Origin: an uncultured Gemmiger sp.
GTDB taxonomy: Bacteria; Bacillota; Clostridia; Oscillospirales; Ruminococcaceae
Assembly: GCA_944388245.1 (NCBI GenBank)
Contig: CALXIA010000014.1
Coordinates: 1-44,145, forward strand
Length of the DNA: 44,145 bases
Direction of reading: 5' to 3'
Shown one piece after another: positions 13,734 to 30,482 of this stretch. Made by a program: the position numbers and the translations under genes. The notes under the pieces are model-generated. The model saw only the letters and a list, made by a program, of their open reading frames with translations. It was not told the DNA's origin and made no database searches. Every line of letters starts with the position of its first letter. Positions within the stretch are counted from its first letter, which is position 1.

Positions 13734-16730
13734 TTAGTCCAGGCCGGCAAATCCCAGCGCCAGCACAAAGCGGAACCGTTCCTCCGCCAGGGTGTACCGC
13801 GGATCCAGAACCGGGCCGCAGCTGTTGGAGCCAATGCCGCTGTTCTTGTAGTCCAGGCAGAGTTCCACGTCCGCCGCCCGTTCCAGTTCAAAATCGTGGG
13901 CCGCCGCCATCAGTGCCTCCTGCGGATAGTGGGAGGCCCGGAAGCTGAAAGGCGCATCGGAAGCCGCCCAGAGAGCCGCGTCCTCCCCGTTCAGCCGCAC
14001 CGCCGTACACCCCGTGTGGCTGCCGTGTTCCTGGGGCTTGATGTAGTCCACATACTCCGCGTCCACCGTGCCGTCAAATGCCCCGTACCAACTGGCCTGG
14101 TGCTTGTCCAGATAGCTTTCGCCGGGACCGTAGCCGGTGTAGGACAGCCCCTCGAAACCCGCCGGCAAAAACAGCCGAACGCCGAACCGGGGCAGGTAGG
14201 GAAACAGGGAGTCCCGTTTTCCCTCCACCGTCAGCCGCAGCCCGCCGCGGGCGTCGATCCGCCAGCACACCGCGCAGCGCAAAAACGGCTGCCGGATACT
14301 GGCCGCGAACACCACATCACAGACGATCTCGGCGCCGCCGTCCGCCGCGCGGGCGATGTCGCACCGGGCCAGACGCAGCTGTGCCCGGTCGTAGCCGGCC
14401 TGTTCCCAGACGCGGCGGATCTTGCGGTCGTTGTCGGTGGGGGCGCGCCAGACATTGAAGCCCATCGGGCGGCTCAGCCGTTCCCGCCCGCCCCACGCAA
14501 GGCTCTTGAAACAGCCGGTGAACCGGTCGAACACATACTCGAACCCTTCGCCGGTGATCCGGATCGTCTCGTCGGTCTCCGCCCAGTCCACCGGGCCCGC
14601 GCAAGGTTCCGGCAGCGCCGGCGCTGCCGCCTGCAGGGGGATCTCGTCAAAGCCCATCTCCTCCCCCGCCCGCATAAAGCCAGCATCCCGGGCGGCCAGC
14701 CAGACCAGCCGCAGGTCCCAGCGGCCCCGCGCACAAGGTTGCGGGCAGGGCAGCGGCATCGCGGCGGTGCCCCGTGGCGGCAGCGGAGGCAGTTCCGCTT
14801 CGCCGCCGGCGGTCAGCACCCCATCCCGGCGCAATTCCCACCGCAGCCGCACCAGGCGGGACGCGTCGGTGAAGTCCAGGGTATTGCGCAGCCGGATCAC
14901 CCCGTCGGACCAATCGGCCCGCACCGGCCGCCAGACGTTCTTCAGTTCCCGCAGACCGGGGTGCGGTTTGCGGTCGGGCGAGACCAGACCGTCCACACAG
15001 AAGTTCAGGTCGTGGGGGAACTCGCCGCTGTCGCCGCCGTACAGATACTTCCGCCCCCCGCCGGGCGCGGGGCCCGCGTCGATGGCATGGTCGCACCACT
15101 CCCACACAAAGCCGCCCAGCACGCCGGGCTGCTCCAGCATCATGGTCTCGTAGTCCTCCAGATCGCCTGGACCGTTGCCCATGGCGTGGCAGTATTCCAC
15201 CAGCAGAAAAGGTTTGATATTGGCCGGATCGGCCAGCCAGCGGCGCACAAAGTCCGGCGGGGTATACATCCGGCTGAACAGATGCAGCATGCTGTCATCG
15301 TTCACATGGCCGCCGGTCTGCCGCCAGGCCCCCTCAAAATGCACCAGCCGGGTGGGGTCGTATTCCCGCACCCAGCGGCCCGCCTTTTCAAAGCCGGGCC
15401 CGTAGCCGGACTCGTTGCCCAGCGACCAGATCAGCACCGACGGGCTGTTTTTGTCCCGGATCACGCAGCGGCGCACCCGGTCCAGGATCAGGGGTTCAAA
15501 GGCCGGGTCCTGGGCGATCAGGCCGTAGGTGATCTCGTCGCCTCCGCCAAACAGTTCGGTCACCCCGTGGCATTCCACATCCGCCTCGTCGATCAGATAG
15601 AAGCCGTACCGGTCGCACAGCTGCGCAAACCAGGGCGCGTTGGGATAATGGCTGGTGCGGATCGCGTTGATGTTGTGCCGTTTCATCAGGACCAGGTCCC
15701 GCAGCGCCTGTTCCGGCGAGATGGCGAAACCGGTGACCGGGTCGGAATCGTGGCGGTTCACCCCCCGCAGCCGCAGCGGCCGGCCGTTGAGCAGCACCTG
15801 CCGCCCCTGCACCGCGATATCCCGCACCCCCACCGGCAGGCTGATGATCTCCTCGCCGGCGCGCAGTTCCAGCCGGTAGAGGGCCGGGGTCTCGGCGGTC
15901 CAGAACCGGGGCGCATCCAGCGGAATGGTCAGATCGTTTGTGGCCTTGCCCTGTGCCGCGGGGGCTCCGTCCGGATCCCACAGCTGCCATTCCAGGGCCC
16001 CGGCGCCGCCGGTCCACTCCACCCCGACCTGGATCACCGCTTTGGTATACCCCTCGCAGCCCCAGGTGCGCACCCCGATATCCCGGATATGCTGCGCGGG
16101 CCGCGCCAGCAGATACACGTCCCGGAAGATGCCGGACATGCGGAACTTGTCCTGACATTCCAGATAGGTGCCCACGCTCCACTTGAGCACCAGCACCGCC
16201 AGCAGGTTCTCCCCGGGATGCACAAAGGCGGTGATATCGAACTCGCTGGTGGAGTGGGAGACCTGGCTGTATCCCACCCGCTGCCCGTTGACCCAGACGT
16301 AGTAAAAGCTGTCTACCCCCTCAAAGTTCAGATAGAGCCGCCCGCCGCAAAGGTCCTCGTCCAGGGAGAAACAGGTGCGGTAGGCGCCGCAGGGGTTCTG
16401 GTGGGGCACAAAGGGCGGATCGTACGGGATGGGATACCGCACGTTGCTGTACTGGTTTTTGTCCAGCCCCTGCATCTGCCAGCAGGAGGGCACCGGCATG
16501 GGGGAAAACTCCTGGTCGTCAAACTCCGGCCGGCAGAACTCCTCCGGCACGGCGCTGATCCGGTCGTACAGCTTCATCCGCCAGCTTCCGCTGAGCAGGA
16601 CGAATCGCTCCGAGGTCTCCCGCGCGGCGGCCGCATCCTGCCCGGGAGCAAAGGGAATGTAGTAGGCGCGGTCCGGCTCCACCCCTTCGTGAAGCCGGGT
16701 CCAGTCCTCAAATTCATGGTGATGCCGCAT
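13734..16730 (-). CDS. lacZ: GH2 beta-galactosidase (LacZ type)
   Basis: 998-residue enzyme with the full long LacZ architecture: jelly-roll N-terminal domain (PVPSCWQMQGLDKNQYSNV), TIM barrel with RGVNRHDSDPVTG and IDEADVECHG, and a C-terminal beta-galactosidase small-chain region. The acid/base Glu440 is in WSLGNESGYG and the nucleophile Glu512 in LVEYCHAMGNGPG, followed by GGFVWEWCDHAID. It has no signal peptide, so it acts on imported galactosides. ATG 16730 has AAAGGAG upstream; the reading frame extends further but only over intergenic hairpins. Last gene of the fucose operon, it would remove terminal beta-linked galactose after fucose or sulfate is taken off, an inference from the setting. 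Confidence 0.95.
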   Translation of the reverse strand: MRHHHEFEDWTRLHEGVEPDRAYYIPFAPGQDAAAARETSERFVLLSGSWRMKLYDRISAVPEEFCRPEFDDQEFSPMPVPSCWQMQGLDKNQYSNVRYPIPYDPPFVPHQNPCGAYRTCFSLDEDLCGGRLYLNFEGVDSFYYVWVNGQRVGYSQVSHSTSEFDITAFVHPGENLLAVLVLKWSVGTYLECQDKFRMSGIFRDVYLLARPAQHIRDIGVRTWGCEGYTKAVIQVGVEWTGGAGALEWQLWDPDGAPAAQGKATNDLTIPLDAPRFWTAETPALYRLELRAGEEIISLPVGVRDIAVQGRQVLLNGRPLRLRGVNRHDSDPVTGFAISPEQALRDLVLMKRHNINAIRTSHYPNAPWFAQLCDRYGFYLIDEADVECHGVTELFGGGDEITYGLIAQDPAFEPLILDRVRRCVIRDKNSPSVLIWSLGNESGYGPGFEKAGRWVREYDPTRLVHFEGAWRQTGGHVNDDSMLHLFSRMYTPPDFVRRWLADPANIKPFLLVEYCHAMGNGPGDLEDYETMMLEQPGVLGGFVWEWCDHAIDAGPAPGGGRKYLYGGDSGEFPHDLNFCVDGLVSPDRKPHPGLRELKNVWRPVRADWSDGVIRLRNTLDFTDASRLVRLRWELRRDGVLTAGGEAELPPLPPRGTAAMPLPCPQPCARGRWDLRLVWLAARDAGFMRAGEEMGFDEIPLQAAAPALPEPCAGPVDWAETDETIRITGEGFEYVFDRFTGCFKSLAWGGRERLSRPMGFNVWRAPTDNDRKIRRVWEQAGYDRAQLRLARCDIARAADGGAEIVCDVVFAASIRQPFLRCAVCWRIDARGGLRLTVEGKRDSLFPYLPRFGVRLFLPAGFEGLSYTGYGPGESYLDKHQASWYGAFDGTVDAEYVDYIKPQEHGSHTGCTAVRLNGEDAALWAASDAPFSFRASHYPQEALMAAAHDFELERAADVELCLDYKNSGIGSNSCGPVLDPRYTLAEERFRFVLALGFAGLD

Positions 16731-16809: not shown

Positions 16810-18594
16810 TTATCGGTAGAGCGGGCCGTAATGCTTGCAGGCGGCAAAGTCCGCGGCCTCGGTGTCCTGTGTGCCGAAAGCAGCCCAGGCGTGGGGCCGG
16901 TAGAGGGCCTCATTTGGCAGGTTGTGCAGCGCTACCGGGATGCGCAGCATCGAGGCCAGGGTGACCAGATCCGCCCCCACATGGCCGTAGACGGTGACAC
17001 CGTGGTTGGCGCCCCAGTTGGCCATGACGCTGTATACATCCCGGAACGCCCCCTTGCCGGTGAGCCGGGGCACAAACCAGGTGGTCGGCCAGGTGGGATC
17101 AGTGCGCTTGTCGATGGGGGTATGCACCTCGTCCGGCAGATGGGCGGTCCAGCCTTCGGCCAGCTGCAGCACCGGGCCTACCCCCTCCACGATGTTCACC
17201 CGCAGCAGGGTCACCGGCATCTCGGCGGCACAGCGGAAGTGGCTGGAGAATCCGCCGCCCCGGAAGTATTCGTAGTTGGCGCGGCACCAGTCGGTAGCCG
17301 CCAGGCAGGCGTTCACGTCCCGGTCGGTCATCTCCCAGAAGGGCTTCATCGCGGGCTCGCCCTTGTCGTTGACGGCCGCGCCGCTGCCGTCCAGCGCGGT
17401 GGCGCCGGAGTTGATGAGATGGATGAAGCCGTCCTTCGCCACGCCGGTGGGCTTGTGGCCGGTGACCCGCTCGCAGGCCTCGGGGCTCCAGTAGGTGCGC
17501 ACGTCGTGGAAACAGGGCGCGGTGCCGGTGACCAGGGTGCCCAGCAGCATCGCCACCCCGTTGAGGGTGTCGTTCTCGGTGGCGAAGGGGGTGGGACGCT
17601 TGGGGCCGTTCCAGTCAAAGGTACTGGCCAGGATCGCCTCGCTGAAGTCCGCGTTGGGCAGCCAGTCGGTCCAGTTGCGCTGGCCCTGGAAGCCGCCGGC
17701 CACGGCATTTTTGCCCAGCGCCTCCTCGTGCCAGCCCATCTCGTCCAGCTTCGGATTGCCGTACAGAATATCCCGCATGACCATGGTCATCTTGGTGACG
17801 AACTCCCAGTCCTTGTCGGCGGGCACCACCTTGGACCGGGTGATCACCGGCGGCAGATCCTTGCCGGCGTTGCAGTCAAAACCCTCCTTGCAGTTGGCTT
17901 TGACCCAGGCCAGGGCCCGGTCGTACTCCTCGTGGTCGTAAATTTCCAGGGTGATGCGGCGCAGGATCTCGGTCATATCCACCCACTCGGGCCGGATGCC
18001 CAGATAGTTCTGGAACATGGCCGCGTCGCAGTAGCTGCCGGCGATGCCCATGGCCACGCCGCCCAGGTTGACGTAGGCCTTGTTCTTCATCCAGCCCACC
18101 GCCACGGCGCAGCGGGCAAACCGCAGGATCTTCTCGGCCGCGTCGGCGGGCACGCTGGTGTCGGCGGCGTCCTGCACGTCATGGCCGTAGATGGAGAAGG
18201 CAGGCAGCCCCTTCTGGGCGTGGGCGGCCAGCACCGCGGCCAGATAGACAGCCCCCGGGCGCTCGGTGCCGTTGAAGCCCCATACCGCCTTGATGGTGCG
18301 GGGGTCCATGTCGAAGGTCTCGCTGCCATAGCACCAGCAGCGGGTGACGGTCAGGGTGGCCACCACGTTTTCGGTGGTGAACTTGTCGGCGCAGGCGGCA
18401 GCCTCGGCCCCGCCGCCGATGGTGGAGTCCGCGATCACGCACTGAACGGGGGTGCCGTCCGGATAGCGCAGGTTTTCCTCGATCAGGGCCTTCGCGTTGC
18501 GGGCCATGGCCATGGTCTGTTCTTCCAGGCTCTCCCGCACACCGCCCCAGCGGCCGTCGATGGTGGGTCGAATCCCGATTTTTGGATAGAGCAT
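16810..18594 (-). CDS. fucI: L-fucose isomerase FucI
   Basis: 594-residue isomerase that turns L-fucose into L-fuculose, length matching the family. The N terminus [20 protein letters not shown] is diagnostic, followed by [18 protein letters not shown] and [17 protein letters not shown]. The enzyme is a Mn-dependent cytoplasmic hexamer in other bacteria. An AGGAGGAA ribosome binding site precedes the ATG. It lies 12 bases after the kinase gene, so translation is closely coupled. D-arabinose can also be a substrate of this family, but the adjacent aldolase and the GH29 fucosidase point to fucose. Confidence 0.97.
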
Positions 18595-18606: not shown

Positions 18607-20031
18607 TTATTGCAGTTGTTGTCTGAATCGGGCGATGGCTTCCTTCCAGCCCTCCCGCCCGGCCGGTTCGTATCGTTTGAGCGGCTCGGTGCGCGCGATG
18701 AGCGCGCGGCCTTGCCCGATGCTTTCCACCTCGCCCAGGGCCACAAGCTGGATCAGGATGTTGCCCAGCGCGGTGGCCTCCACCGGCCCGGCGATCACCG
18801 GGATGCCGGTGCAGTCGGCGGTCATGCGGCAGAGCAGGCCGTCCTTTGCGCCGCCGCCCAGCACATGCAGCACCGAAAACTGCCGGCCGGTGAGCCGGCG
18901 CAGCTGGTCCAGCGCCGCATCGTATTTGAGGGCCAGGCTTTCGTAGATGCAGCGCATCACCTGCCCCACCGTTTCCGGCACCGGCTGGCCGGTGCGCCGG
19001 CAGAATTCCCGCACCCGGCCCGGGATATCCCCCGGCGGGGTGAACTCCGGCGCGTCCGGGTCGATAAAGCTGCGCAGGGGCTCGGCAGCCAGGGCCAGCT
19101 GTTCCAGTTCGGCGTAGGAATACTCCCGCCCTTCGCGCCGCCACTGGCGGCGGCTCTCCTGGATCAGCCACAGGCCGATAATGTTCTTCAGGTAGTTCAC
19201 CTTTCCATTGGCCCCTCGCTCGTTGGACAGAGCAGCCAGCCGGCTTTCCCGGGTCAGGATCGGCTGGTCCAGTTCGCAGCCCAGCAAACTCCAGGTGCCG
19301 CAGGAGAGGAACGCTGCGTCCGGGTCGGTGCAGGGCATGGCGGCCACCGCGCACTGGGTGTCGTGGCCGGCCACCGCGATGACCTTCGCGCCCCGGTATT
19401 CCCCTATCACCGTACCGCTCTCCACCCGGGGGGCGAACAGGGTTTCCGGGATATCGAACGCCGCCAGCACCTGCCGGCTCCATGCGCCGGTGCGCGGATC
19501 CAGCATCTGGCTGGTGGAGGCAATGGTCGTCTCGCACACGCTCGCCCCGCACAGGGCACAGGCGAACAGATCCGGCATAAACAGCAGCCGCCGGGCACGG
19601 GCCCAGGTCTCCGGCTCGCCTTTTCGGGCCGCCAGCAGCTGAAACAGGGTGTTGATGGGCATGATCTGGCTGCCGGTGGCGGCGTAGAGCGCGTCCGCGT
19701 CCAGCCGGTCGCAGGCCGCCTCCACCATGCCGGCGGTGCGGCCGTCCCGGTAGTGGACCGGGTCTGCCAGCAGCTTGCCCGTCTGGTCCAGCAGGCCGAA
19801 GTCCACCCCCCAGGTGTCAAAGCCCACGCTGTCAAAAGCGCCCGCCTGTTCGACGCCCCGCTGTACGTTCTGCATCAGATCAGAGAAATCCCAGCGAAGA
19901 TGCCCGGCCTGTACCCGGGGGCGGTTTTCAAAGCGGTGTACCTCCCGGCAAATCAGGCGACCGCCGTCATATTCCGCCAGGATGGCCCGGCCGCTGGACG
20001 CGCCGAAGTCAAACGCCAGAACTCGTTTCAT
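18607..20031 (-). CDS. FGGY kinase of the rhamnulokinase subfamily, probable L-fuculokinase
   Basis: 474-residue sugar kinase. N-terminal phosphate-loop region VLAFDFGASSGRA, the DTWGVDFGLLD motif, SCGTWSLLG, and the adenosine-binding GGGAKDGLLCRMTAD with VIAGPVEATALGN are the marks of RhaB-like FGGY kinases rather than of E. coli FucK. Gene order between fucI and fucA, and absence of rhamnose genes nearby, argue that its substrate is L-fuculose; using a RhaB-type kinase for this step is an inference here. ATG 20031 with AAAGGAG at 20041-20047 is preferred over the upstream start at 20064. The gap to fucA is 13 bases. Confidence 0.9.
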   Translation of the reverse strand: MKRVLAFDFGASSGRAILAEYDGGRLICREVHRFENRPRVQAGHLRWDFSDLMQNVQRGVEQAGAFDSVGFDTWGVDFGLLDQTGKLLADPVHYRDGRTAGMVEAACDRLDADALYAATGSQIMPINTLFQLLAARKGEPETWARARRLLFMPDLFACALCGASVCETTIASTSQMLDPRTGAWSRQVLAAFDIPETLFAPRVESGTVIGEYRGAKVIAVAGHDTQCAVAAMPCTDPDAAFLSCGTWSLLGCELDQPILTRESRLAALSNERGANGKVNYLKNIIGLWLIQESRRQWRREGREYSYAELEQLALAAEPLRSFIDPDAPEFTPPGDIPGRVREFCRRTGQPVPETVGQVMRCIYESLALKYDAALDQLRRLTGRQFSVLHVLGGGAKDGLLCRMTADCTGIPVIAGPVEATALGNILIQLVALGEVESIGQGRALIARTEPLKRYEPAGREGWKEAIARFRQQLQ

Positions 20032-20044: not shown

Positions 20045-20734
20045 TCAGCGCAGGCCGTTTTCAAACTTTTTGTAGCCCGGATGCCGCCCGGTGACCCGAT
20101 AGAATCCCCGCAGATCGATGAGTTTCTGGATGTTCTCCCGGCTGATGTCCACGCTGCCGCCCAGGATCACCGCGTTGATGGTGATCTTGGCCCAGAGTTC
20201 CAGGCTCTCCATCCGATAGAAGGCGGTGATCACATCGCTGCCCACCGCCAGCGCGCCGTGGTTTTCCAGCAGCATCACGTCGTGTTCTTCCAGATAGGGC
20301 TCGATGGCGTCGGGCACCTCCGGGGTGGAGGGGGTGCCGTAGGGGGTCAGGGGTACGCTGCCGATCACCGCCACGTCCTCGATCATGTTGTACATATCCA
20401 TCGCCTTGTGGGCCACCGCAAAGCCGGTGGCGCCGGGGGGATGGGCGTGAAGTACACTGCCCACATCGGGCCGCTTTTCGTAGCAGCGCAGATGCATCTT
20501 AATCTCGCTGGAGGGGCGCAGACCCTCCGCGCCCTCCAGTACCTGGCCTTTGGCGTCGATTCGCAGCAGTTTGTCCGGCGTGATAAAACTCTTACTGATG
20601 CCGGTGGGGGTACACAGGAAGGTGCCGTCCTCCAGGCGGGCGGACAGGTTGCCGTCATTGGCGGCCACCCAGCCCAGCTGCCAGGTTTTTTGACAGACGT
20701 CGCACATCTGTTCTTTCAGCGCTTGCAATTCCAT
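20045..20734 (-). CDS. fucA: L-fuculose-1-phosphate aldolase FucA
   Basis: 229-residue class II aldolase/adducin-family enzyme that splits L-fuculose-1-phosphate to dihydroxyacetone phosphate and L-lactaldehyde. Zinc ligands His96, His98 (VLHAHPPGA) and His159 (LLENHGAL) are present with the catalytic Glu77 (SSEIKMHL). NDGNLSARL and TPTGISK are typical substrate-binding stretches. Family relatives include rhamnulose-1-phosphate aldolase and ribulose-5-phosphate epimerase; the operon with fucI decides for fuculose. The next gene upstream, the sulfatase, ends 24 bases before. No lactaldehyde reductase is in the window. Confidence 0.93.
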   Translation of the reverse strand: MELQALKEQMCDVCQKTWQLGWVAANDGNLSARLEDGTFLCTPTGISKSFITPDKLLRIDAKGQVLEGAEGLRPSSEIKMHLRCYEKRPDVGSVLHAHPPGATGFAVAHKAMDMYNMIEDVAVIGSVPLTPYGTPSTPEVPDAIEPYLEEHDVMLLENHGALAVGSDVITAFYRMESLELWAKITINAVILGGSVDISRENIQKLIDLRGFYRVTGRHPGYKKFENGLR

Positions 20735-20758: not shown

Positions 20759-22216
20759 TTATTTCTGGTATTTGGGGCTGTCGGCGTAGACCGGCCGCCC
20801 CTCGGAATAGATCCCCGGCCGGCGCATCTGGCCAAAGCCGGACACCGCCTCCCGGGTGCCGTCCACCGCCGGATCGGCGTAGGTGTGGTACCAGTGTTGC
20901 AGCTTTTTTAGCAGCTGCGCCTGAACGTTGGCGTATTCGGGCCGGCCGGCCAGGTTTTCCCGCTCGCCCGGGTCGTTTGCCAGGCAATACAACTCGTGGG
21001 GGCCATAGGGATAACGGTGGATGTATTTCCATTCCCGGTTGCGGATCATCCGGCTGTTGCCGTACTCGTCCAGAATGACCACGTGGTTGTCGGCCTCGGC
21101 GCCGTTCACCAGCACATCGGCAAAGCTGCGGCCCGGCAGGTCGGCGGGCAGATCGGCCCCCAGATCCAGCAGCTCGTTCAGGGTGTGGATGATATCGTAG
21201 TGGCTGCACATGCTGCCGGTCACCCGGCCCGCCCGGATATGGCCGGGCCAGCGGGCGATGAAGGGCACCTTGACCGCTGTGTCGAACAGGTTAAAGGGGA
21301 AGGTGCCGTTGCCCTTGCCCCAGATGCCGTGGTGCCCCATGTTCATGCCGTTGTCGGCGGTGAAGATCACCAGGGTGTTCTCTGCCAGGCCCAGCGCTTC
21401 CAGCCGGTCCAGCAGCCTGCCCACCCCCGCGTCCATGGCGCTGATCGCCGCATAATAGCCCCGCAGCAGCCGTTTACGCTCCTCGCCGGTGCCGCCGGGG
21501 GCGGTGGGGATGCGGTTGGGATGCAGCGGCTCGTCCGGGGTGGCGGTAAAGGCGCAGTCCCCGTACAGGTCGATGTACTCCTTCGGGTGCTGATCCTCGT
21601 CCCAGGGGTCGTGGGGCGCGGTATAGTGCACGCTGATGTAGAAGGGCTCCTCCCGGCCGGAAAACTCGTCCAGATACCCCAGGGCCCGCTCGGTGATGAG
21701 ATCGGTGATATACCGGCTTTCAAAATGCAGCTGTCCGTTCTCGATCACGTCCGCCTGGTTGTACAGGCAGCCGCCCCGCCCGATGGTGTACCAGTGGGAA
21801 AACCCGTGCTGGGGATGCATGCTGTCCCCCAGGTGCCATTTGCCGCTGAGGGCACAGGTATAGCCCTTTTGCGCCAGCAGATCCGGATAGGTGAGGAGCC
21901 CTTCCAGATACCGGATGGGCAGGTCCTCACTGGCGAAATAGGGATGGTCCGCGTGCTCGCCCAGCGCCTTTTTGTCCAGGCTTCCGCTGCGGATCCAGTC
22001 GTGGACCCCATGCTGGGAGGGGATGCGGCCGGTCAGGATGGAGGCGCGGGCCGGGCTGCACACCGGCGAAGCGCAGAAAAAGTTTTCAAAGCGGGTGCCC
22101 TGGGCCGCCAGCCGGTCCAGATGGGGGGTGTGAAGATCGGTGTTGCCGGCACAGCGCATGGCCCAGGCGCCTTGATCGTCGGTCAGGATAAAGAGCAGAT
22201 TCGGTCGTTGGTTCAT
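20759..22216 (-). CDS. Sulfatase, Cys type, no signal peptide
   Basis: 485-residue sulfatase of the alkaline phosphatase superfamily. It starts PNLLFILTDDQG, with Asp13/Asp14 as metal ligands. The formylglycine site is Cys53 in CSPARASILTGR, and the second metal region is FTADNGMNMGHHG near residue 285. Cys-type sites are matured by a radical-SAM enzyme (anSME) or by FGE; neither gene is in the window. No signal peptide or lipobox is seen, so it seems cytoplasmic, unlike the periplasmic or secreted sulfatases of Bacteroides. ATG 22216 is chosen because the family start follows directly; an upstream in-frame extension would run through a terminator. The operon suggests desulfation of an imported glycan, with galactose-6-sulfate or fucose sulfate as the guess. 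Confidence 0.93.
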   Translation of the reverse strand: MNQRPNLLFILTDDQGAWAMRCAGNTDLHTPHLDRLAAQGTRFENFFCASPVCSPARASILTGRIPSQHGVHDWIRSGSLDKKALGEHADHPYFASEDLPIRYLEGLLTYPDLLAQKGYTCALSGKWHLGDSMHPQHGFSHWYTIGRGGCLYNQADVIENGQLHFESRYITDLITERALGYLDEFSGREEPFYISVHYTAPHDPWDEDQHPKEYIDLYGDCAFTATPDEPLHPNRIPTAPGGTGEERKRLLRGYYAAISAMDAGVGRLLDRLEALGLAENTLVIFTADNGMNMGHHGIWGKGNGTFPFNLFDTAVKVPFIARWPGHIRAGRVTGSMCSHYDIIHTLNELLDLGADLPADLPGRSFADVLVNGAEADNHVVILDEYGNSRMIRNREWKYIHRYPYGPHELYCLANDPGERENLAGRPEYANVQAQLLKKLQHWYHTYADPAVDGTREAVSGFGQMRRPGIYSEGRPVYADSPKYQK

Positions 22217-22306: not shown

Positions 22307-23866
22307 TCAGCCGGCCGCATTGAACTGGCTCAACTGGTTGCTCACCTCGGTCACCAGGGCTTCAGCGCCATTGGCGTTCAGCGCATCCAGGAACTGAGGG
22401 ATGTACTCGGCGGGATCCACCGAGCCGGTCTCCAGGGAGGGAGCGTACTCGCTGATCACGTTGGTCAGGGCCGCCACCTGGGTCTCCACCGGCACCGCGT
22501 CAAAGGTAAAGCCGTTGTTGGGCGAGATGATCGCGGAGTCGTTGTATTCCTGGAACAGTTCCTCGATGTTGTCGGGATAGCTGATATCCCACTTCTGGTT
22601 GAAGGGGGTGCCGAACTGCCAGCCGTAGGTGTAATCGTAGCCGTTTTCGGTCAGGGTGCCGCCCATGGTCTTGTCCACCTGGTTATCGCCCACCGCGGTG
22701 TAGTGCTGGCCCTCGATGCCGTGACGGATCAGGGTGCCCACATACTCGTCGGTGTTCAGCAGGTTGATGAATTCCAGCGCCTTCTCGGGATACTCACTGG
22801 CGGAGGAGATGGCCAGCAGGCCGCCCATGGCGCTGCGGGTCTCAAACAGGGGATCCATCAGGGGCAGGAAGTCCACGCCGTGGCCGCTGGACGCGGTCAT
22901 GGACTCGGCGGTGCCGGGAGCGTACTGGATGAAGTAGGAGAACAGAGCGCCGTTGTTGAAGTCGTTATCCCGGTTGGCGGTGTCGCTGTCGTAGTTGACC
23001 GGGTCGCCGCCCAGGTAACCGGCCTGGTTCCAGCCGCGCACGGTGGTGCAGTAGTTCATGTACTCCTCGCTGGCGTACTGGTTGAACACGGCCTGGCCGG
23101 CCATGTCGGCAAAGTTGTTGAACTCGGCCACCGCGCCCGCCGCGGGCAGTTTCGGGTTACCGGTGAGAGACTCATAGGGCGCGGCCATGGGCCAGGCGTT
23201 GGTCAAACCGGAAACGCCCACCACATCCTTGCCTTCGGCCTTGCTCTTCTCGGCCACGGTCGCCAGGACCTGGGTGTAATCCTCCAGGGTCTTGACCGCG
23301 GTCATGTCGATGCCGTAGGCCTCGGCCATATCGCTGTTGTACACGATGCCGCCCTGCCAGCCCATCTCCTTATAGGAGGGCACACCGTAGATGGCGCCGT
23401 TCACCTTGACGGCGTTCCACTCGGCCTCGGGGATGAAGTCCCAGGTCTCCTTGGCGTACTGGGGCAGCAGTTCGGTGATATCCATGAAGGCGTCCTTGCC
23501 CACGAACTGCAGATAGTCGGTGGTCCAGTTGGAGGTAAAGCAGATGTCGAAGTATTCGCCCGCATTGATCAGGTTGGGCATCTTCTCCTTGTAGTCCGGG
23601 TTGGCCATGACCTTGTAGTCGATCTCCACGCCGATCTTCTCCCGGGTATACTCATTCAGCGCCTCGATGACCTTATCGGTATCGGCGGCCACCGGGTTGA
23701 TGGACATGTACCAGGTCAACGTGGTGATCTCCTGGCCGGCGGAAGATCCGGAACCGGCCGTGGAGCCGGCGGTGGAATTGCCATTGCCGCCGCAGCCCGC
23801 CAGCATGCCGGCCGCCAGAGCGGCAGCGGCGCCCAGCGCCATGACTCGTTTGATCGTGTTTTTCAT
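22307..23866 (-). CDS. ABC sugar-binding lipoprotein (CUT1, LplA-like)
   Basis: 519-residue extracellular solute-binding protein. The N terminus has KR, a hydrophobic stretch and the lipobox LAGC with Cys25 as the lipidation site, then a Gly/Ser-rich linker (about 26-45), so it is anchored outside the membrane. The mature part is of the long LplA/YtcQ type, rich in Tyr/Trp, consistent with an oligosaccharide ligand (for example LTWYMSINPVAADTDKVIEA). GGAGG precedes the ATG. Permease genes lie directly upstream. No ATPase gene is in the cluster; a shared MsmK/UgpC-type ATPase encoded elsewhere is usual for this class. A terminator-like hairpin after it fits the need for excess binding protein. 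Confidence 0.93.
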   Translation of the reverse strand: MKNTIKRVMALGAAAALAAGMLAGCGGNGNSTAGSTAGSGSSAGQEITTLTWYMSINPVAADTDKVIEALNEYTREKIGVEIDYKVMANPDYKEKMPNLINAGEYFDICFTSNWTTDYLQFVGKDAFMDITELLPQYAKETWDFIPEAEWNAVKVNGAIYGVPSYKEMGWQGGIVYNSDMAEAYGIDMTAVKTLEDYTQVLATVAEKSKAEGKDVVGVSGLTNAWPMAAPYESLTGNPKLPAAGAVAEFNNFADMAGQAVFNQYASEEYMNYCTTVRGWNQAGYLGGDPVNYDSDTANRDNDFNNGALFSYFIQYAPGTAESMTASSGHGVDFLPLMDPLFETRSAMGGLLAISSASEYPEKALEFINLLNTDEYVGTLIRHGIEGQHYTAVGDNQVDKTMGGTLTENGYDYTYGWQFGTPFNQKWDISYPDNIEELFQEYNDSAIISPNNGFTFDAVPVETQVAALTNVISEYAPSLETGSVDPAEYIPQFLDALNANGAEALVTEVSNQLSQFNAAG

Positions 23867-23935: not shown

Positions 23936-24871
23936 TCAGCCCTTTACGCCGCCCACCGTCAGGCCCTTGACGAAATATTTCTGGAAGAAGGGATAGGCCA
24001 GCAGAATGGGCAACACCACCAGCACGGTCAGCGCCATGCGGCCGCTGTCGGTGGGGGCGTTGGCCGCCATTTCGGCGTATTCCAGGGCGTTGGCCGAGGA
24101 CTGTTTCATAAACTCCAGGCTGTTCTGCATGCTCCACAGCAGGGTCTGCACCGGATACTTTTTCTGATCGATGATGTAAAGCATCCCCAAAAACCAGTCG
24201 TTCCAGTAGGCGATGGTGGTAAACATGCCGATGGTGGCCAGGCCGGGTTTAGACAGGGGCATCACGATGCGGAAGAAGGTCTTGAACTCTCCCGCGCCGT
24301 CGATGCGGGCCGCCTCAATGATCTCGAGGGGGATCCCCTTGTAGAAGGTGCGCAGTACGATCACGTAAAAGGCGTTCAGCGACATGGGGAAGATCAGCGC
24401 GCCCAGGCTGTCGCCCAGACCCAACAGCTGGGTGTTGACCATATAGGTGGCCACGATGCCACCGTTGAACAGCATGGTGAAGAGCATCAGCAGGGTGAAC
24501 AGCCGGTTGTAAGCGTAGTCGGCCCGGCTGAGTACGTAGGCAAACATGGCGGTGATGGCCAGACTGAACAGGGTGCCCGCCACCGTGACGAAGATGGTGA
24601 TGCCGTAGGAGCGTACCAGCTGGTCGCCCAGGCGGAAGAAGAAACGGTAGGCGTCCAGGCTCCACTCGCTGGGGAAAAAGCTGTAGCCGTTCTGGAAGAT
24701 GCTCTGCTCGCTGCTGAAGGACACGATGACCACCAGGATCAGTGGCAGCACGCAGGCCAGCGTCCAGATCAGGAAGATCAGGTTGAGGATCCGGTCGGTG
24801 GTTTTGGAGATCCGGTTGATCGCCAGATCGCCCTCGCCCTCGTCCCGGAAACGGTTTTTGAATTTGCGCAT
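23936..24871 (-). CDS. ABC sugar permease (CUT1, LplC/YtcP-like)
   Basis: 311-residue inner-membrane permease with about six helices. The conserved EAA loop is seen as EIIEAARIDGAGEFKTFFRIVMPLSKPG, here near residue 200, which couples to the ATPase. The N terminus is a long charged cytoplasmic segment (RKFKNRFRDEGEGD). ATG 24871 is preceded by AAGGAGGG; the frame runs further upstream into the preceding gene's end, but that extension is not needed. It lies 19 bases after the partner permease gene. Works with the LplB-like permease as a heterodimer. Confidence 0.93.
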   Translation of the reverse strand: MRKFKNRFRDEGEGDLAINRISKTTDRILNLIFLIWTLACVLPLILVVIVSFSSEQSIFQNGYSFFPSEWSLDAYRFFFRLGDQLVRSYGITIFVTVAGTLFSLAITAMFAYVLSRADYAYNRLFTLLMLFTMLFNGGIVATYMVNTQLLGLGDSLGALIFPMSLNAFYVIVLRTFYKGIPLEIIEAARIDGAGEFKTFFRIVMPLSKPGLATIGMFTTIAYWNDWFLGMLYIIDQKKYPVQTLLWSMQNSLEFMKQSSANALEYAEMAANAPTDSGRMALTVLVVLPILLAYPFFQKYFVKGLTVGGVKG

Positions 24872-24890
24872 GGTGTATTCTCCCTCCTTC

Positions 24891-25844
24891 TCAGAACAGG
24901 GCGCTGTCCGGCTCAATGCGGCGCACCACCAGGTTGGCGCCCACCACCAGCACGAAGCCCACCACCGACTGGTACAGGCTGGCCGCGGCGGCCATACCCA
25001 CGTTGCCGGTCTCTTTCAGAGCCCGGTACACATAGGTATCGATCACCTGGGTGACCGGATACAGCGGGCCGGAATCCCGGGGAAGCTGGAAGAACAGGCC
25101 GAAATCGGCGTAGAAGATGCGGCCGATCGCCAGGATGGTCAGCACGATCATCATCGGCTTCAGGCAGGGAAGGGTGATCCGGCGGATCTGCTGCCATTTG
25201 GTGGCGCCGTCGATGATGGCCGCCTCATAATAGTCGTTGGAGATGCCGGTCAGGGTGCTGATGTACATCACGGTGGAGTACCCCACGGTTTTCCACAGCT
25301 GGAAGAAGGTCAGGATAAAGGGCCATTTGCCCGGCTCAGCGTACCAGTTGACCCCGGAGAATCCGAAATAGTTCAGCAGATGATTAAATAAGCCGTCGTC
25401 CACGCTGAACAGGGAGAAGGCCATGAAGGAGACCACGACCCAGGACAGAAAATACGGCGCCATGAAGATGGTCTGGTACACCTTGGCCCGCCGCTTGCGC
25501 AGCAGTTCGCTCAGGCCGATCGCCATGGCCACCGCCATCACCAGATCCAATGCGATGAAAAAAGCGTTGTACAGGATGGTGTTGCGGGTGATAACCCAGG
25601 CGTCAGAGGTCTTGAACAGGAATTCAAAGTTCTGCCAGGCCACCCAGTCGCTGCCGAAGATCCCCTTGCGCACGCTGAACCGTTTGAAGGCCAGCAGCAA
25701 GCCGGACATGGGCAGATACCGGAACAGGAACATCACCACCAGCGCCGGCAACGCCATGATCGTAAGTGGCAGGTTTTTTTGAAAGGTCTTGACAAACCCC
25801 GCTTTTCTGCACACGGTATTGGTGTGCCGGGCGGACTGTTTCAT
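24891..25844 (-). CDS. ABC sugar permease (CUT1, LplB/YteP-like), first gene of the fucose operon
   Basis: 317-residue permease with about six membrane helices and the EAA loop YEAAIIDGATKWQQIRRITLP near residue 205. The motif FRYLPMSGLLLAFKRFSVRKGIFGSDWVAW close to the N terminus is characteristic of the LplB subgroup, which imports oligosaccharides such as plant or host glycan fragments. AAGGAGGAG precedes the ATG. It is the first gene after the divergent promoter region, with seven further genes behind it on the same strand. Confidence 0.93.
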   Translation of the reverse strand: MKQSARHTNTVCRKAGFVKTFQKNLPLTIMALPALVVMFLFRYLPMSGLLLAFKRFSVRKGIFGSDWVAWQNFEFLFKTSDAWVITRNTILYNAFFIALDLVMAVAMAIGLSELLRKRRAKVYQTIFMAPYFLSWVVVSFMAFSLFSVDDGLFNHLLNYFGFSGVNWYAEPGKWPFILTFFQLWKTVGYSTVMYISTLTGISNDYYEAAIIDGATKWQQIRRITLPCLKPMMIVLTILAIGRIFYADFGLFFQLPRDSGPLYPVTQVIDTYVYRALKETGNVGMAAAASLYQSVVGFVLVVGANLVVRRIEPDSALF

Positions 25845-25897
25845 GCTGTGCTCCTCCTTGCTGCGGCGTTTCGCGGCCGGACTTTCGTTCTGGATTT

Positions 25898-25927
25898 ATT
25901 ATAAACGCCGCCGGCACAAGCAAACAA
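25898..25927 (-). promoter_or_regulatory. Promoter of the transport-sulfatase-fucose operon
   Basis: Minus-strand TATAAT (25898-25903) with TTGTTT (25922-25927) as -35 and an 18-base spacer, about 54 bases before the permease ATG. The weak -35 fits an activated promoter. No clear CcpA cre site was found. Confidence 0.65.
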
Positions 25928-25999
25928 CGCTACAAATTTTAAGTGGGGTGCACTTTTTTTAGATGCGAGGTCATGCCTGCTGCGGCCCCGCAAAAAATG

Positions 26000-26008
26000 T
26001 GGTATACT
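26000..26008 (+). promoter_or_regulatory. Extended -10 promoter of the two-component genes
   Basis: TGGTATACT, an extended TGn -10 without a recognisable -35, 58 bases before the response regulator ATG. In the leader, TACATC (26034-26039) and GATGTA (26044-26049) form a small hairpin just before AAAGGAG. Confidence 0.6.
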
Positions 26009-26066
26009 GGTGGCCGAACGGTGGAAAACGCCGTACATCTCATGATGTAGAAAGGAGCAACGCCCC

Positions 26067-27140
26067 ATGAAAGTTCTGCTTGTCGATGACGATCCCCTGG
26101 CTCTGGAAGGAATCCAGCGCATGCTGCACTGGGAATCTTTCGGCGGCGAACTGGCCGGATGCGCCGCCAGCGGCGAGGAGGCGCTTGCCCTGCTGGAAGC
26201 CACCCATCCCGATGTGGTGATCTCGGACATCCGGATGCCCGGTCTGGACGGATTGGATCTGGCCCGGCATATCCACGAACACTTTCCTTATACCCGAATG
26301 ATCCTGATCAGCGGCCACGGCGAATTCAGCTACGCCCAGCAGGCCCTGCAATATCAGGTGACCGACTATCTGCTCAAGCCCATTACCCGGGCCAAGCTGA
26401 ACAGCCTGGAGGAACGTCTGGCCGCCATTCAAAAAGAACTCACCGCCGACGTGCCGCCCTGGTACGCCTGCGACGAGGAACTGCGCAACCGGGTGGGCCA
26501 GGCGCTGCGCAAGGGGGACATGGCCGCCATCGGGGAACTGCTGATCCAGCCCGACGTGTTTCGCGCGCTGTGCAGCCGCCGGGACGTGCTGGGTATCCAG
26601 CTGCTGAACTATTTATTTGTGTACCAGGCGGAACTGGGCAAAGACCGGGATTCGCTGGACGCGCTGCGCCAGGAGGCCATGTCGGAATACTGGGCTTTAA
26701 GCACCGCCGGCGAGCGCCGGGCCTACCTGGCGGCGCGCTATTACGATCTCATGGAATATGCCGAAGAGCAAAAGAACGAGTATACCAGCCCGATCGTGCG
26801 GTTCTGTTTGCAGTCCATTGAGGAAAACTTTTCCGACTCCAACTTCAATATCTCCAACCTGGCCGACACGCTGCATCTCTCCCTGTCCTATTTGAGCACC
26901 GTGTTCAAAAACGCCACCGGTCAGAACGTGAGCAACTACCTCTCCGCCCGGCGGCTGCGGCAGTCCCAGAAGCTGCTGCGGGACCCCTCGATCCCCATTC
27001 GCCAGGTCTGCTTCTTGTGCGGGTACGACGATCCCCGCTATTTTGCCAAGCTGTTCAAAAAACACATTGGTATGACCCCCAGTGAATTCCGCAATCTGTA
27101 TGCGGCGGGCGGCCATCCCACGGCGGAGGACACCCCATGA
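26067..27140 (+). CDS. YesN-type response regulator with AraC output domain
   Basis: 357-residue regulator. The receiver domain (1-120) has acidic DD at 7-8, phosphoacceptor Asp54 in VISDIRMPG and Lys in YLLKPI. After a linker of about 110 residues, a C-terminal AraC-type double helix-turn-helix (about 245-345) ends with CGYDDPRYFAKLFKKHIGMTPSEFR, the family signature. Such regulators pair with YesM-like kinases and activate adjacent sugar transport genes. Divergent placement from the permease-fucose operon makes that operon the likely target. The stop overlaps the kinase start by 4 bases (ATGA). An AAAGGAG ribosome binding site precedes the ATG. Confidence 0.94.
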   Translation: MKVLLVDDDPLALEGIQRMLHWESFGGELAGCAASGEEALALLEATHPDVVISDIRMPGLDGLDLARHIHEHFPYTRMILISGHGEFSYAQQALQYQVTDYLLKPITRAKLNSLEERLAAIQKELTADVPPWYACDEELRNRVGQALRKGDMAAIGELLIQPDVFRALCSRRDVLGIQLLNYLFVYQAELGKDRDSLDALRQEAMSEYWALSTAGERRAYLAARYYDLMEYAEEQKNEYTSPIVRFCLQSIEENFSDSNFNISNLADTLHLSLSYLSTVFKNATGQNVSNYLSARRLRQSQKLLRDPSIPIRQVCFLCGYDDPRYFAKLFKKHIGMTPSEFRNLYAAGGHPTAEDTP

Positions 27141-28921
27141 GCATCACCCGACGTACCTTTTTGAGCATCTGCGGGCTGTTCTGCCTGGTGCTGCTGGCGC
27201 TGAACACCGCCACCTATCTGCTGTTTCAGTACGCCATCACCCGGCAGCTGATCACCTCGCAGGCGGCCATAGCGGAAGCCAATGTACAGCTGAGTTCCGT
27301 TTTCACCCAAACCACCGACAAGCTAATCTACCGATATACCAGCGACGCGGAACTGGGCGAACTGTTAAGCCGTGCGGTGGGGCGTGACGAACTGGAAGAT
27401 CTGAACACCAAGTATCTGCTCAACAGCCGGCTGACCTATCACCTGAACGCGGAAAACCTGCTTTTGAACAACGGGTTTCGGATGGAATTGTACCTTGACC
27501 CGGCCTTGCCGGTGAGCCAGCTGTTCGCGCCTGGCAACACCATCCCCAACGTGAGCCGCGTGTTCAGCGGCGAAGCGGTCGCGCAGGAGGACTGGTATCA
27601 AGTGGTGCGGGCAAACAATGGGCGGCTCATTTTTCTCAACGAGGACCAGACCCGGCTGTGTTTTGCCACCAAACTGCAAAACAGCACCTACACCGGGGTC
27701 CACCGCAAAGAGGGGATCGGCGTGCTGCTGGGCAGCCTGCCGCTGGACCGGCTGCCCCATCTGCTCTCTCTCTTTCCCATCACCGAAAACAGCGGATTCT
27801 TGCTGTTGAACGGCCAGGGCCAGCAGGTGTTCTGTTCTGAGGCCCTGGCCGGGCTGCCGGCCGCGGATGAATTGTCGGTACCGGACTCCAGCAGCGAGTT
27901 GACTCTGGGCGAACAGCGGTTTCTCTGCACCCCGGCCCGGCTGGACTGGGGGCTGCAGCTGGTGTTCCTGACCCCCTATTCCGATATCGCCCGTCAAGTA
28001 TGGGGCATGATGTTCCCCTATCTGGTCTGTTCGGCGGTGTTTCTGATGCTGGGGGTGCTGGTTTCCCTGGGGCTTTCCGCCCAGGTATCCCGGCCGGTGG
28101 TGCGCTTTACCCGCAAACTGGAGGCCATCCAGGACACCCGCAGCGTCAGCGCCGAGAATTTCGCGCCCCGGGGACCCCGGGAGATCTGCCAGCTGAACCG
28201 CAGTTTCGGCGCGCTGATCGGCCGGGTCAACGCGCTGATCGAGGAGGTCACCCGCAAGGAGGACCAGCGCCGGGAGAGCGAGCTGCGGGCACTGCAGGCC
28301 CAGATCAATCCGCACTTCATGCTCAACGCCATGAACGCTGTGAACTACATGGCCCTGGCCCGGGGCGAGGACGACATCGCCGCCACAGTGGATTCGATCG
28401 CCAACCTGATGCGGTACAGCATCACCGAACCGGACCGCCTGGTGACCATGAGCACCGAACTGGACAATATCCGGGAATATATCGCGGTGTATGTGCTGCG
28501 GTTCCGTCAGGATATCCGGCTGGAGATGCTGCCGGGGCTGGACGCGTCCCAGGTGGTCATCCCGAAATTCACCCTGCAGCCCCTTGTGGAGAATTCGATC
28601 CGGCACGGCATCACCCGGCAGGATCCGGGCATCGTGATCCGCATCCAGGCGCAGGAAACCGACACCGGCATTTGCATTGAGGTGACCGATACCGGCCGCG
28701 GCGCCGACGCCCGGCTGCTCAACGATTATCTGGAGTACCGGGACGTGGACCTGAAGGTGACCCATGGTTTTGGCATCCGCAACGTAAACGAGCGGTTGCA
28801 GCTGCGGTTCGGGCCCGGCTGTCATCTGCGGTACGCAAACTATGACGGCCGCCGGCTGCTGGCCCGGCTCACCCTGCCCAAATCCCCTAGCCCGGCCAAA
28901 GAGGCCCTGTCCGGCAGCTGA
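27137..28921 (+). CDS. YesM-type sensor histidine kinase
   Basis: 594-residue membrane sensor. TM1 is at about 10-32 (LSICGLFCLVLLALNTATYL), then an extracytoplasmic sensor region of about 250 residues, TM2 near 295-315 (FPYLVCSAVFLMLGVLVSL), HAMP, and the His_kinase domain with phosphoacceptor His393 in QAQINPHFMLNAMNAVNY. This departs from the usual PHFLYNTLN but keeps the histidine. The ATPase domain has LVENSIRHGI, DTGRGAD and GFGIRNVNERLQ. The large external domain could sense the glycan directly or via the binding protein. Translationally coupled to the regulator by the ATGA overlap. Confidence 0.93.
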   Translation: MSITRRTFLSICGLFCLVLLALNTATYLLFQYAITRQLITSQAAIAEANVQLSSVFTQTTDKLIYRYTSDAELGELLSRAVGRDELEDLNTKYLLNSRLTYHLNAENLLLNNGFRMELYLDPALPVSQLFAPGNTIPNVSRVFSGEAVAQEDWYQVVRANNGRLIFLNEDQTRLCFATKLQNSTYTGVHRKEGIGVLLGSLPLDRLPHLLSLFPITENSGFLLLNGQGQQVFCSEALAGLPAADELSVPDSSSELTLGEQRFLCTPARLDWGLQLVFLTPYSDIARQVWGMMFPYLVCSAVFLMLGVLVSLGLSAQVSRPVVRFTRKLEAIQDTRSVSAENFAPRGPREICQLNRSFGALIGRVNALIEEVTRKEDQRRESELRALQAQINPHFMLNAMNAVNYMALARGEDDIAATVDSIANLMRYSITEPDRLVTMSTELDNIREYIAVYVLRFRQDIRLEMLPGLDASQVVIPKFTLQPLVENSIRHGITRQDPGIVIRIQAQETDTGICIEVTDTGRGADARLLNDYLEYRDVDLKVTHGFGIRNVNERLQLRFGPGCHLRYANYDGRRLLARLTLPKSPSPAKEALSGS

Positions 28922-28959
28922 ACGTCTCATTCCAGATGCCATTTTTCCCGCTCTGCGAT

Positions 28960-29048: not shown

Positions 29049-29076
29049 TTGCGGCGGCGGGCTTCTTCCGTATAGT
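29049..29076 (+). promoter_or_regulatory. Promoter of the fucosidase gene
   Basis: TATAGT (29071-29076) with TTGCGG (29049-29054) 16 bases upstream. A separate promoter from the kinase genes, since a terminator lies between. Confidence 0.6.
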
Positions 29077-29120
29077 AGAAGTAAGGCAATCACTACCCGC
29101 ATGAAAGGAATCCAACCGCC

Positions 29121-30482
29121 ATGAAACAAGCGATCGTCGCCAACGGCGTACACAATTACACCCCACCGGACGAATACATTCCGCCCCGTTCGTCCCAGGT
29201 ACAGGAACACCTGGCATGGTTCATGGGGCTCAAACTGGGCTTTATGATGCACTGGGCCCCCGGCAGCCAGCTGGGCACCTACGAGAGCTGGCCGCTGAGC
29301 GACGGCGACGCCGCCTGGAGCCAGGAGGACTTCACCTGGGCCGATCCCGAGACCTGCAAGCGTCAATACCGGGAGGCCAATCGCACCTTCAACCCGGTCA
29401 AGTTCAACCCGGCCGCCTGGGCAAAGCTGGCTCGGGAATGTGGGTTCAAATACCTGCTGTTCACCACCAAGCACCACGACGGGTTCTGCATGTACGACAC
29501 CCGGACCACCGACTACAGGATCACCGCACCGGACTGCCCGTTCCATACCCATCCCGACGCGGATGTGGTGGGGGCGCTGTACCGGGAATTCCGCAAACAG
29601 GGCCTGGCCATCTCCACCTACTTTTCCAAGCCCGACTGGAACAGCCCCTTCTACTGGGCGCCCCAGTTCGGCCCCGCCCCCACCCGCAACGTAAACTATG
29701 ATGTGCACCAGCATCCGGAATTGTGGGAGCAGTATGTGCAGTTCACCCACCAGCAGATTCGGGAGCTGTGCACCAACTATGGTCAGATCGACGTGCTCTG
29801 GCTGGACGGCGGCTGGGTGCGGCCGGACAATCTGGGGCAGGACATCCGGCTGGGTGAGATCGTGGAGGAACTGCGCGCCGGTCCTCAGCCCCAGATGATC
29901 GTCTGCGAGCGGACCTGCGGCGGCGAATACGAAAACTTTATCACCCCCGAAAAAACCGTGCCGGATACCGCGCTGACGGTACCCTGGGAAACCTGCACAA
30001 CCGTGGGGGAGAAATTCTCCTTCCATTACACCGACCATTTCAAGAGCGGCCGGGAACTGGTGCACCTCTTGCTGAACGTGGTGAGCAAGGGCGGAAATCT
30101 GGCGCTGAATCTGGCGCCCCAGCCCGACGGCGAACTGCCCGCCCCCGCGGTGCGCTCACTGCGGGAGATGGGCGCCTGGCTGGCCCTGTTTGGCGAGGGG
30201 ATCTACGGCACCCGCATCTGCGCCCCCTACTTTGAGGACCGGCTGTTCTACACCCAAAAAGAGGGAGAGGTCTTCGTTTTCTTCCGCTACGACGAGCTTC
30301 CCCGTCTGCCGGACCGTCTGACCCTGCATCTTGACCGTCCGGTGCGGCAGGCGCATTGTATGCGCACCGGCGAGCCGCTGCATTTCCAGGCCGGCGCCGA
30401 TGGCCTGACGCTGGATCTTCGGAAGGTGCCCATGGGCGGTGCCTTCTATGCCGAGGGGTTCCGGCTGACCCTGGCCGACTGA
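29121..30482 (+). CDS. GH29 alpha-L-fucosidase, cytoplasmic
   Basis: 453-residue retaining fucosidase. GLKLGFMMHWAP near the N terminus, FTTKHHDGFCMYDT (the sugar-binding His-His motif) and IDVLWLDGGW with the predicted nucleophile Asp229 are GH29 landmarks. LLLNVVSKGGNLALNLAPQPDG closes the barrel. Length is close to a catalytic domain plus a short beta-domain; no extra carbohydrate-binding module and no signal peptide are present, so it works on imported oligosaccharides. The acid/base residue cannot be assigned by eye. AAAGGAA precedes the ATG. It supplies L-fucose for the FucI-kinase-FucA route encoded on the other strand. Confidence 0.93.
   Translation: MKQAIVANGVHNYTPPDEYIPPRSSQVQEHLAWFMGLKLGFMMHWAPGSQLGTYESWPLSDGDAAWSQEDFTWADPETCKRQYREANRTFNPVKFNPAAWAKLARECGFKYLLFTTKHHDGFCMYDTRTTDYRITAPDCPFHTHPDADVVGALYREFRKQGLAISTYFSKPDWNSPFYWAPQFGPAPTRNVNYDVHQHPELWEQYVQFTHQQIRELCTNYGQIDVLWLDGGWVRPDNLGQDIRLGEIVEELRAGPQPQMIVCERTCGGEYENFITPEKTVPDTALTVPWETCTTVGEKFSFHYTDHFKSGRELVHLLLNVVSKGGNLALNLAPQPDGELPAPAVRSLREMGAWLALFGEGIYGTRICAPYFEDRLFYTQKEGEVFVFFRYDELPRLPDRLTLHLDRPVRQAHCMRTGEPLHFQAGADGLTLDLRKVPMGGAFYAEGFRLTLAD

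Follow-up and report, generated by a model that had tools for sequence, protein, structure and literature searches.

What does a gut bacterium of the genus Gemmiger import through a locus in which a sulfatase is joined to fucose genes and a sugar transporter, and where would the ligand come from? The question is raised by contig CALXIA010000014.1 (C14 below) of an uncultured Gemmiger sp. (assembly GCA_944388245.1), whose whole 44145-bp length is the window analysed here and whose genome, of 1.97 Mb in 64 contigs, is 75% complete. Eleven genes of the window code for two permeases and a lipoprotein, a sulfatase, a β-galactosidase, an α-fucosidase, three enzymes of fucose breakdown and a YesMN pair of regulator and kinase. 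It is fairly likely that this locus imports an intact small oligosaccharide carrying α-fucose, a sulfate ester and β-galactose, most likely a sulfated fragment of gut mucin O-glycan, and degrades it in the cytoplasm.

A conserved core around the sulfatase

A sulfatase scan of the genomes of named species found 521 relatives, the best 80 of which were fetched as loci (numbered with L below); the top relative, at 99% identity, is in an uncultured Gemmiger (CALXAH010000002.1). A core locus was taken to be one with a lipoprotein and/or a GH29 of the window type beside the sulfatase (tblastn threshold 1e-20), and 39 of the 80 loci carry it. The lipoprotein is present in 37 of these, YesM and YesN in 34 each, GH29 and each permease in 33, fucose genes in 11, and GH2 of the window type in 8. 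The other 41 loci gave no match to the lipoprotein or GH29 at 1e-20 in the fetched stretch, and weakly similar permeases occur in 15 of them. Rounded identity to the sulfatase of the window is 60–99% in the core loci and 53–63% in the other 41. Six core loci are without GH29: L033, L034 and L055 begin at the lipoprotein, and the stretch ends in L035, L036 and L037, further sequence revealing a GH29 at 83% for the last two. L043 begins at the sulfatase. In most core loci GH29 is located behind YesM; L038, L040 and L043 have it downstream of the sulfatase, and in L040 the fucose genes lie beyond it on the opposite strand. Since GH29 occurs in two arrangements, its link to the sulfatase outlives rearrangement. 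The conservation of a core of sulfatase, GH29, transporter and YesMN, which recurs in distant genera, is real and goes beyond chance.

Galactose and fucose enzymes

LacZ-type GH2 genes of three kinds, 27–43% identical between kinds, are found in the core loci: the window kind (8 loci), a Bga2A kind in L056, L059 and L060 (69–76% mutual identity), and a third kind in L065. The Bga2A cut-off is passed by the enzymes of L056 and L060, while those of L059 and L065 run off the locus end; no NCBIfam equivalog cut-off is reached by the enzyme of the window. That three kinds were recruited separately to one core points to galactose, as a β-galactoside, in the imported ligand and is the best evidence for it. 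The fucose genes and GH2 are often not seen, so neither seems needed for the core, and both the fucose genes and the window-type GH2 are best described as add-ons. The import of a fucosylated, sulfated galactoside, proposed earlier in a sequence-only reading, is thus upheld by a core that recurs in distant genera and to which three kinds of β-galactosidase were added, although two sets of genes on which that proposal leaned belong to its periphery.

The Pfam domain of GH29 scores 261.7 bits (cut-off 25.2), and the Asp of its WLDG motif, which we take to be the catalytic residue, is aligned with 6gn6. The identity of FucI was borne out by two curated NCBIfam equivalog models (Table 1). The kinase had been called RhaB-type and is indeed nearer to rhamnulokinase, but it stays below the RhaB cut-off, and since it is below the cut-off of both models it was accepted neither as a true FucK nor as a true RhaB. 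The aldolase matches 29 class II NCBIfam models, the best 25 of the 29 all below cut-off. According to the accessible part of a gut-genome survey, kinases and aldolases of the fuc and rha pathways are confused, and such genes were named by their clustering with fucI (PMC5583593).

A GH123 gene (Pfam match) is located beside the related sulfatase of Robinsoniella (L063, 17057–18760), and genes that cluster with it adjoin related sulfatases of Hungatella (L089, 12911–14584; L095, 12993–14651). If GH123 is, as we assume, a family of β-N-acetylgalactosaminidases, these neighbours hint at β-GalNAc in some ligands.

The sulfatase

The Cys-type motif CSPAR is at residue 53 of the sulfatase, and 37 of the 38 aligned sulfatases (that of the window and those of 37 of the 80 loci) are of this type; the other, in L093 (8820–10274), is a Ser-type relative with SSPAR replacing CSPAR. 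A hydropathy scan found neither a signal peptide nor a hydrophobic N-terminus in the sulfatase, GH2 or GH29, and desulfation should therefore be cytoplasmic. With the single sequence or with a 38-row profile, the best solved relatives are BT4656 (5g2v), BT3177 (7p24), 9s03 and 9fo1, an S1_16 κ-carrageenan sulfatase, with 6ust of H. hathewayi close behind. An AlphaFold model with a predicted local distance difference test score (pLDDT) of 84 retrieved 5g2v, 6ust, 7p24 and 9fo1 by Foldseek (TM score 0.68–0.74, 24–29% identity), and 9s03 was absent among the best 50 matches listed.

The W of a DWIR motif (residue 74 of 485), invariant in 38 of 38 rows by hand count, aligns with the S1_16 tryptophan, Trp79 in the numbering of AMOR_S1_16A (9fo1), as far as the accessible part of its report goes (PMC11760155). 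At the position of His149 of S1_16, near the sugar, the alignment has an invariant Gly of RGGC, also counted by hand. In the profile alignment the query has no counterpart of DKR and VKRHYG, segments of 5g2v and 7p24 that presumably hold the His/Asp/Arg recognition triad of S1_11. The S1_11 subfamily (GlcNAc-6-sulfatase), the top match in both sequence and fold, was rejected because identity is 24% and those segments are missing, and S1_16 because His149 is replaced, although the Trp is kept. The enzyme is classed as a divergent S1 member, and the retained S1_16-type tryptophan tips the balance slightly towards a galacto-configured sugar as its target.

Transport and functions coded elsewhere

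The lipobox of the DUF3502 lipoprotein reads LAGC, and its PDB relatives 5swa and 5suo (109 bits) are NgtS of Streptococcus pneumoniae, which pairs with the permeases NgtP1 and NgtP2. Two permeases and a lipoprotein at the locus, with a MalK-type ATPase elsewhere, would make up a CUT1-type importer. The locus had been called complete, a description that does not hold, since none of the eleven genes codes for an ATPase, a maturase or a glycan-releasing enzyme. The one MalK-type ATPase of the Gemmiger genome, on contig C16, presumably serves this importer, and two anaerobic sulfatase maturases above cut-off are coded on contig C3; these missing functions are thus in the genome, though outside the locus. 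Maturase-like genes stand beside the core in 8 of the 39 loci (L041, L047, L050–L054 and L056), a call made by clustering with the gene of L041, which alone was confirmed by Pfam and NCBIfam. A gene for a TauE/SafE-type exporter is also present in L041.

The probable ligand and its source

As we picture the route, enzymes outside the cell would release a glycan fragment, which would be bound by the DUF3502 lipoprotein and imported by the permease pair and a shared MalK-type ATPase. Inside, GH29 would remove fucose, the sulfatase (activated by a maturase coded elsewhere) would remove sulfate and GH2 would remove galactose, in one order or another. FucI, the kinase and the aldolase would convert fucose to dihydroxyacetone phosphate and lactaldehyde, and YesMN would turn the genes of the locus on.

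A second import gene run, on contig C3 of the same genome (L138, 6519–17571), comprises on one strand a maturase, a sulfatase, an AraC regulator, GH112, another sulfatase, two permeases and a lipoprotein; GH112 was identified by a lacto-N-biose phosphorylase model, and one permease is 0.3 bits below the Pfam cut-off. GH112 is an enzyme of mucin or milk cores. The run would suit sulfated mucin core disaccharides, and the presence of such an operon in the same genome favours mucin as the source of the ligand. Bird-gut names favour it too: the record titles of 15 of the 39 core loci contain an epithet derived from birds or the word 'Chicken', where we assume the Latin meanings of the epithets and take An-numbered strains to be chicken isolates. 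Mucin was one of the sources named in the sequence-only reading; milk and algae, also named there, have become less likely. In the chicken, 33% of mucin O-glycans in the jejunum and 34% in the caecum are sulfated, and fucose is among their sugars, according to the accessible part of the report (PMC8521165).

Several observations weigh against this ligand. Of the 39 core loci, 28 showed no fucose genes and 27 no GH2, counts that include loci that end early and that were taken without a search of the rest of those genomes. A hexosaminidase is not among the eleven genes. The sulfatase is without a close characterised relative, its best PDB folds having the 24–29% identity given above. L046 belongs to the genome species that also has L034; this second copy shows the sulfatase beside GH29 with no lipoprotein, permeases or YesMN. 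Record titles, by which hosts were judged, carry no bird name in 24 of the 39 core loci.

Sulfate might instead be on the fucose itself, the ligand being a fragment of a sulfated algal or echinoderm fucan or galactofucan taken up with feed. Such an origin would suit the two enzymes of the core, GH29 and sulfatase, and galactofucans contain galactose; in addition, the sulfatase 9s03 has a PDB code neighbouring those of the fucosidases 9rzx, 9rzy, 9s00 and 9s0x, a hint taken from the codes alone. It is made unlikely by the bird-named or 'Chicken' titles of 15 core loci, by the GH112 on which the other sulfatase operon of the genome is built, and by the secreted partner protein described below, in whose central domain, without a credible PDB match, no known fucanase structure was recognised. 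Slightly less likely still is a broad transporter beside merely collected genes, the sulfatase and the fucosidase serving different imported ligands. The sulfatase relatives of 53–63% identity without GH29 in 41 of the 80 loci, 15 with weakly similar permeases, would be expected on that account, but all 37 loci whose sulfatase is at least 64% identical (rounded) carry the lipoprotein and/or GH29, in several genera and in two arrangements. GH29, GH2 and GH112 act on milk oligosaccharides too, but a sulfated oligosaccharide from milk or diet in place of mucin is quite improbable: no milk is made by birds, and the genomes behind at least 15 of the 39 core loci bear bird-derived names. The best NCBIfam models, choline-sulfatase (187.6 bits, cut-off 433.45) and arylsulfatase PRK13759 (175.7 bits, cut-off 481), both matched well below cut-off, would speak for a sulfatase-fold enzyme that acts on choline sulfate, aryl sulfates or phosphonates, with no sugar sulfate involved. 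This is hardly credible, since the carbohydrate sulfatases 5g2v, 7p24, 9fo1 and 6ust top the sequence and fold searches and maturase-like genes adjoin the core in eight loci. That a small galactoside with fucose and sulfate is imported and broken down in the cytoplasm is a well-supported prediction.

Probable horizontal spread

The record titles of thirteen core loci name Mediterraneibacter. Compared with the window, 11 of the 13 are 74–78% identical in the sulfatase, 76–79% in the lipoprotein, 83–87% in the permeases, 71–75% in GH29 and 50–55% in YesMN; L065 and L072 have 65–67, 67–68, 67–72, 62–63 and 33–40%, respectively. Tex, coded in the window, served for comparison as a single marker, with no tree, because RpoB was found only as a domain fragment in this metagenome-assembled genome (MAG) and not in genome G002, and L2 was not found. 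It is 55–57% identical in the twelve Mediterraneibacter genomes searched (L055 left out). Since the core proteins are closer than Tex, horizontal transfer is probable, and the core locus has likely moved in this way. For 'Candidatus Treponema excrementipullorum', identity is 45% in Tex, 74–84% in the sulfatase, lipoprotein, permeases and GH29, and 49–51% in YesMN; its core locus (L061, 1–11309) is on an 11-kb contig of a MAG, and either inter-phylum transfer or misbinning would account for it. The weak conservation of YesMN suggests either that the parts have different histories or that change was rapid.

A giant, apparently secreted partner protein

A giant protein adjoins the core in 7 of the 39 loci (L035, L036, L037, L057, L063, L065 and L072). 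Where complete, it has about 1500–2000 residues, and it is apparently secreted, its N-terminus being signal-like as judged by eye. Cadherin-like and F5/8 type C domains, joined in some copies by CE2_N-like or InlB-type repeats, surround a central domain of about 500 residues, for which no credible match was found in Pfam (best E 0.054) or by PDB profile search (best E 0.014). NCBIfam gave weak matches in the terminal repeats and none for L057; the L063 protein scores 84.6 bits against the lacto-N-biosidase LnbX model (cut-off 2500), its best stretch being 1355–1432. An AlphaFold prediction of the central domain from four sequences, with a pLDDT of 49.8, was too poor for use. Copies were located in L072 (11503–16158), in L148 (7025–12082) and, in the Gemmiger genome itself (G000), on contig C6 (L121, 7916–13981, minus strand).

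Among the genomes of 37 of the 39 core loci (L046 and L055 left out), the partner is present in 11, and the 26 without a match at 1e-40 argue against its being a needed part. Among 37 relatives of the Gemmiger genome, it was found in three of the five that have a sulfatase ortholog with at least 79% identity and in none of the 32 others, and in an order-wide sample of 394 genomes the full domain was found in G000, G027 and G197 (with a partial match in G194) and a sulfatase of at least 84% in G000, G001 and G027; all these genomes are related, so that the counts are not independent. The partner of G197 adjoins YesM, YesN and a lipoprotein (60, 69 and 71% identical, respectively), with no sulfatase match at 1e-150 in that genome. 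L148 (12153–16815) has a lipoprotein and YesMN with the giant protein, and no permease or sulfatase match was found within 19.9 kb; this arrangement may be a sensing or reduced form.

To judge by gene company alone, the partner may be the glycosidase that releases the ligand. A broader proposal, which is tentative and on balance doubtful, is that the locus belongs to a mobile system, spread by horizontal transfer among gut Firmicutes and possibly to a Treponema, that imports first and desulfates inside, with a sulfatase group of its own fucose-tolerant specificity, and that giant glycosidases at the cell surface, of a family so far undescribed, would supply it by cutting sulfated fucosylated fragments from mucin.

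Layout of the locus

All eleven genes were confirmed at the positions, in the order and on the strands previously assigned, each open to its stop codon and with intact motifs (Table 1). Three starts were revised: that of GH2 from 16913 to 16730 (998 aa), by a ribosome-binding-like site and comparison with relatives, and those of the kinase (20064 to 20031) and the sulfatase (22285 to 22216), by Shine–Dalgarno-like stretches. With these starts, the gaps across the eight minus-strand genes are 79, 12, 13, 24, 90, 69 and −26 bp, a spacing by which they are likely to form one transcript.

Table 1. Genes and presumed control region of the locus in the window
Feature	Position	Strand	Basis
GH2 β-galactosidase, LacZ type, predicted cytoplasmic	13734..16730	-	Pfam GH2 domains and Bgal_small_N; best NCBIfam models (β-galactosidases) below cut-off
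FucI, L-fucose isomerase	16810..18594	-	NCBIfam NF008220, 1005.9 bits (cut-off 775); TIGR01089, 948.6 (cut-off 850)
FGGY sugar kinase, rhamnulokinase-like, presumed L-fuculokinase	18607..20031	-	TIGR02627, 432.7 bits (cut-off 527.95); TIGR02628, 120.3 (cut-off 470.9)
Class II aldolase, presumed L-fuculose-phosphate aldolase	20045..20734	-	PF00596
S1 sulfatase, Cys-type (CSPAR)	20759..22216	-	PF00884; motif; AlphaFold pLDDT 84; Foldseek best 5g2v, 24% identity
DUF3502 solute-binding lipoprotein	22307..23866	-	PF12010; PDB relatives 5swa/5suo; lipobox
Sugar ABC permease, MalG/UgpE-like	23936..24916	-	PF00528; NCBIfam sugar permeases below cut-off
Sugar ABC permease, UgpA-like	24891..25844	-	PF00528; NCBIfam sugar permeases below cut-off
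Divergent intergenic region, 222 bp, presumed control region	25845..26066		Read from sequence
YesN-type response regulator with AraC-type DNA-binding domain	26067..27140	+	PF00072 and PF12833
YesM-type membrane histidine kinase	27137..28921	+	PF06580, PF02518, weak dCache
GH29 α-L-fucosidase, predicted cytoplasmic	29121..30482	+	PF01120; nearest PDB chain 6gn6; WLDG at 227

No tRNA was found in the window, nor any Rfam match at gathering score. Elsewhere in the window, an open reading frame of 1352 aa (6202–10260) matches both FeoA and FeoB models and may reflect a fusion, an early start or a frame effect; about 570 residues ahead of FeoA match no Pfam family at 0.001.

Comparison with known systems

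Similar groupings have been reported, as far as the accessible parts of the sources go. The ats1 and ats2 clusters of Bifidobacterium breve likewise combine a sulfatase, a transporter and a regulator in a Gram-positive gut bacterium, contain an anaerobic maturase and serve the use of sulfated host glycans (PMC9239261). Here the maturase is coded outside the locus, and YesMN and a DUF3502 lipoprotein are present, whereas GH29, fucose genes and a β-galactosidase are not mentioned in the accessible description of ats (PMC9239261). NgtS, distantly related in sequence to the lipoprotein of the locus, also binds oligosaccharides of host glycans, but its ligands are mannose-GlcNAc compounds (Man1GlcNAc and Man5GlcNAc), and a sulfatase is not mentioned in the part of the report available (PMC5215778). 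The S1 sulfatases of Bacteroides thetaiotaomicron (S1_4, S1_11, S1_15, S1_16 and S1_20) act on sulfated Gal, GalNAc and GlcNAc of mucin; its polysaccharide utilization loci differ in having SusC/SusD and the key enzyme BT1636 at the cell surface (PMC10154612), whereas in the Gemmiger locus uptake apparently precedes desulfation, by an enzyme predicted to be cytoplasmic. Fucose gene sets of gut bacteria (FucI, FGGY kinase and FucA) take the same three steps, which here are joined to a sulfatase and an importer. The accessible part of the survey reports a mucin-desulfating (GlcNAc-6) sulfatase from no genomes other than 42 of Bacteroidetes and that of A. muciniphila (PMC5583593).

The same gene combination was not found in literature searches covering titles and abstract openings of open-licence PMC papers. 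The earlier view of the system as a candidate for an undescribed one fits these searchable papers and goes no further, the families of its parts being known. The conservation of the system is real, its parts are of known families, and it is probably mobile.

Significance

Mucus is protected by sulfate caps. Reviews, as far as accessible, deal chiefly with the mucin sulfatases of Bacteroides. The locus raises the question of the specificity of a divergent sulfatase group and of the function of a large surface protein without a recognised catalytic family. If the proposed route is true, a Firmicute that imports the capped fragment whole and then desulfates it in the cytoplasm would deny the sugar to its competitors, and this route could explain how Clostridia of the bird gut feed on sulfomucins.

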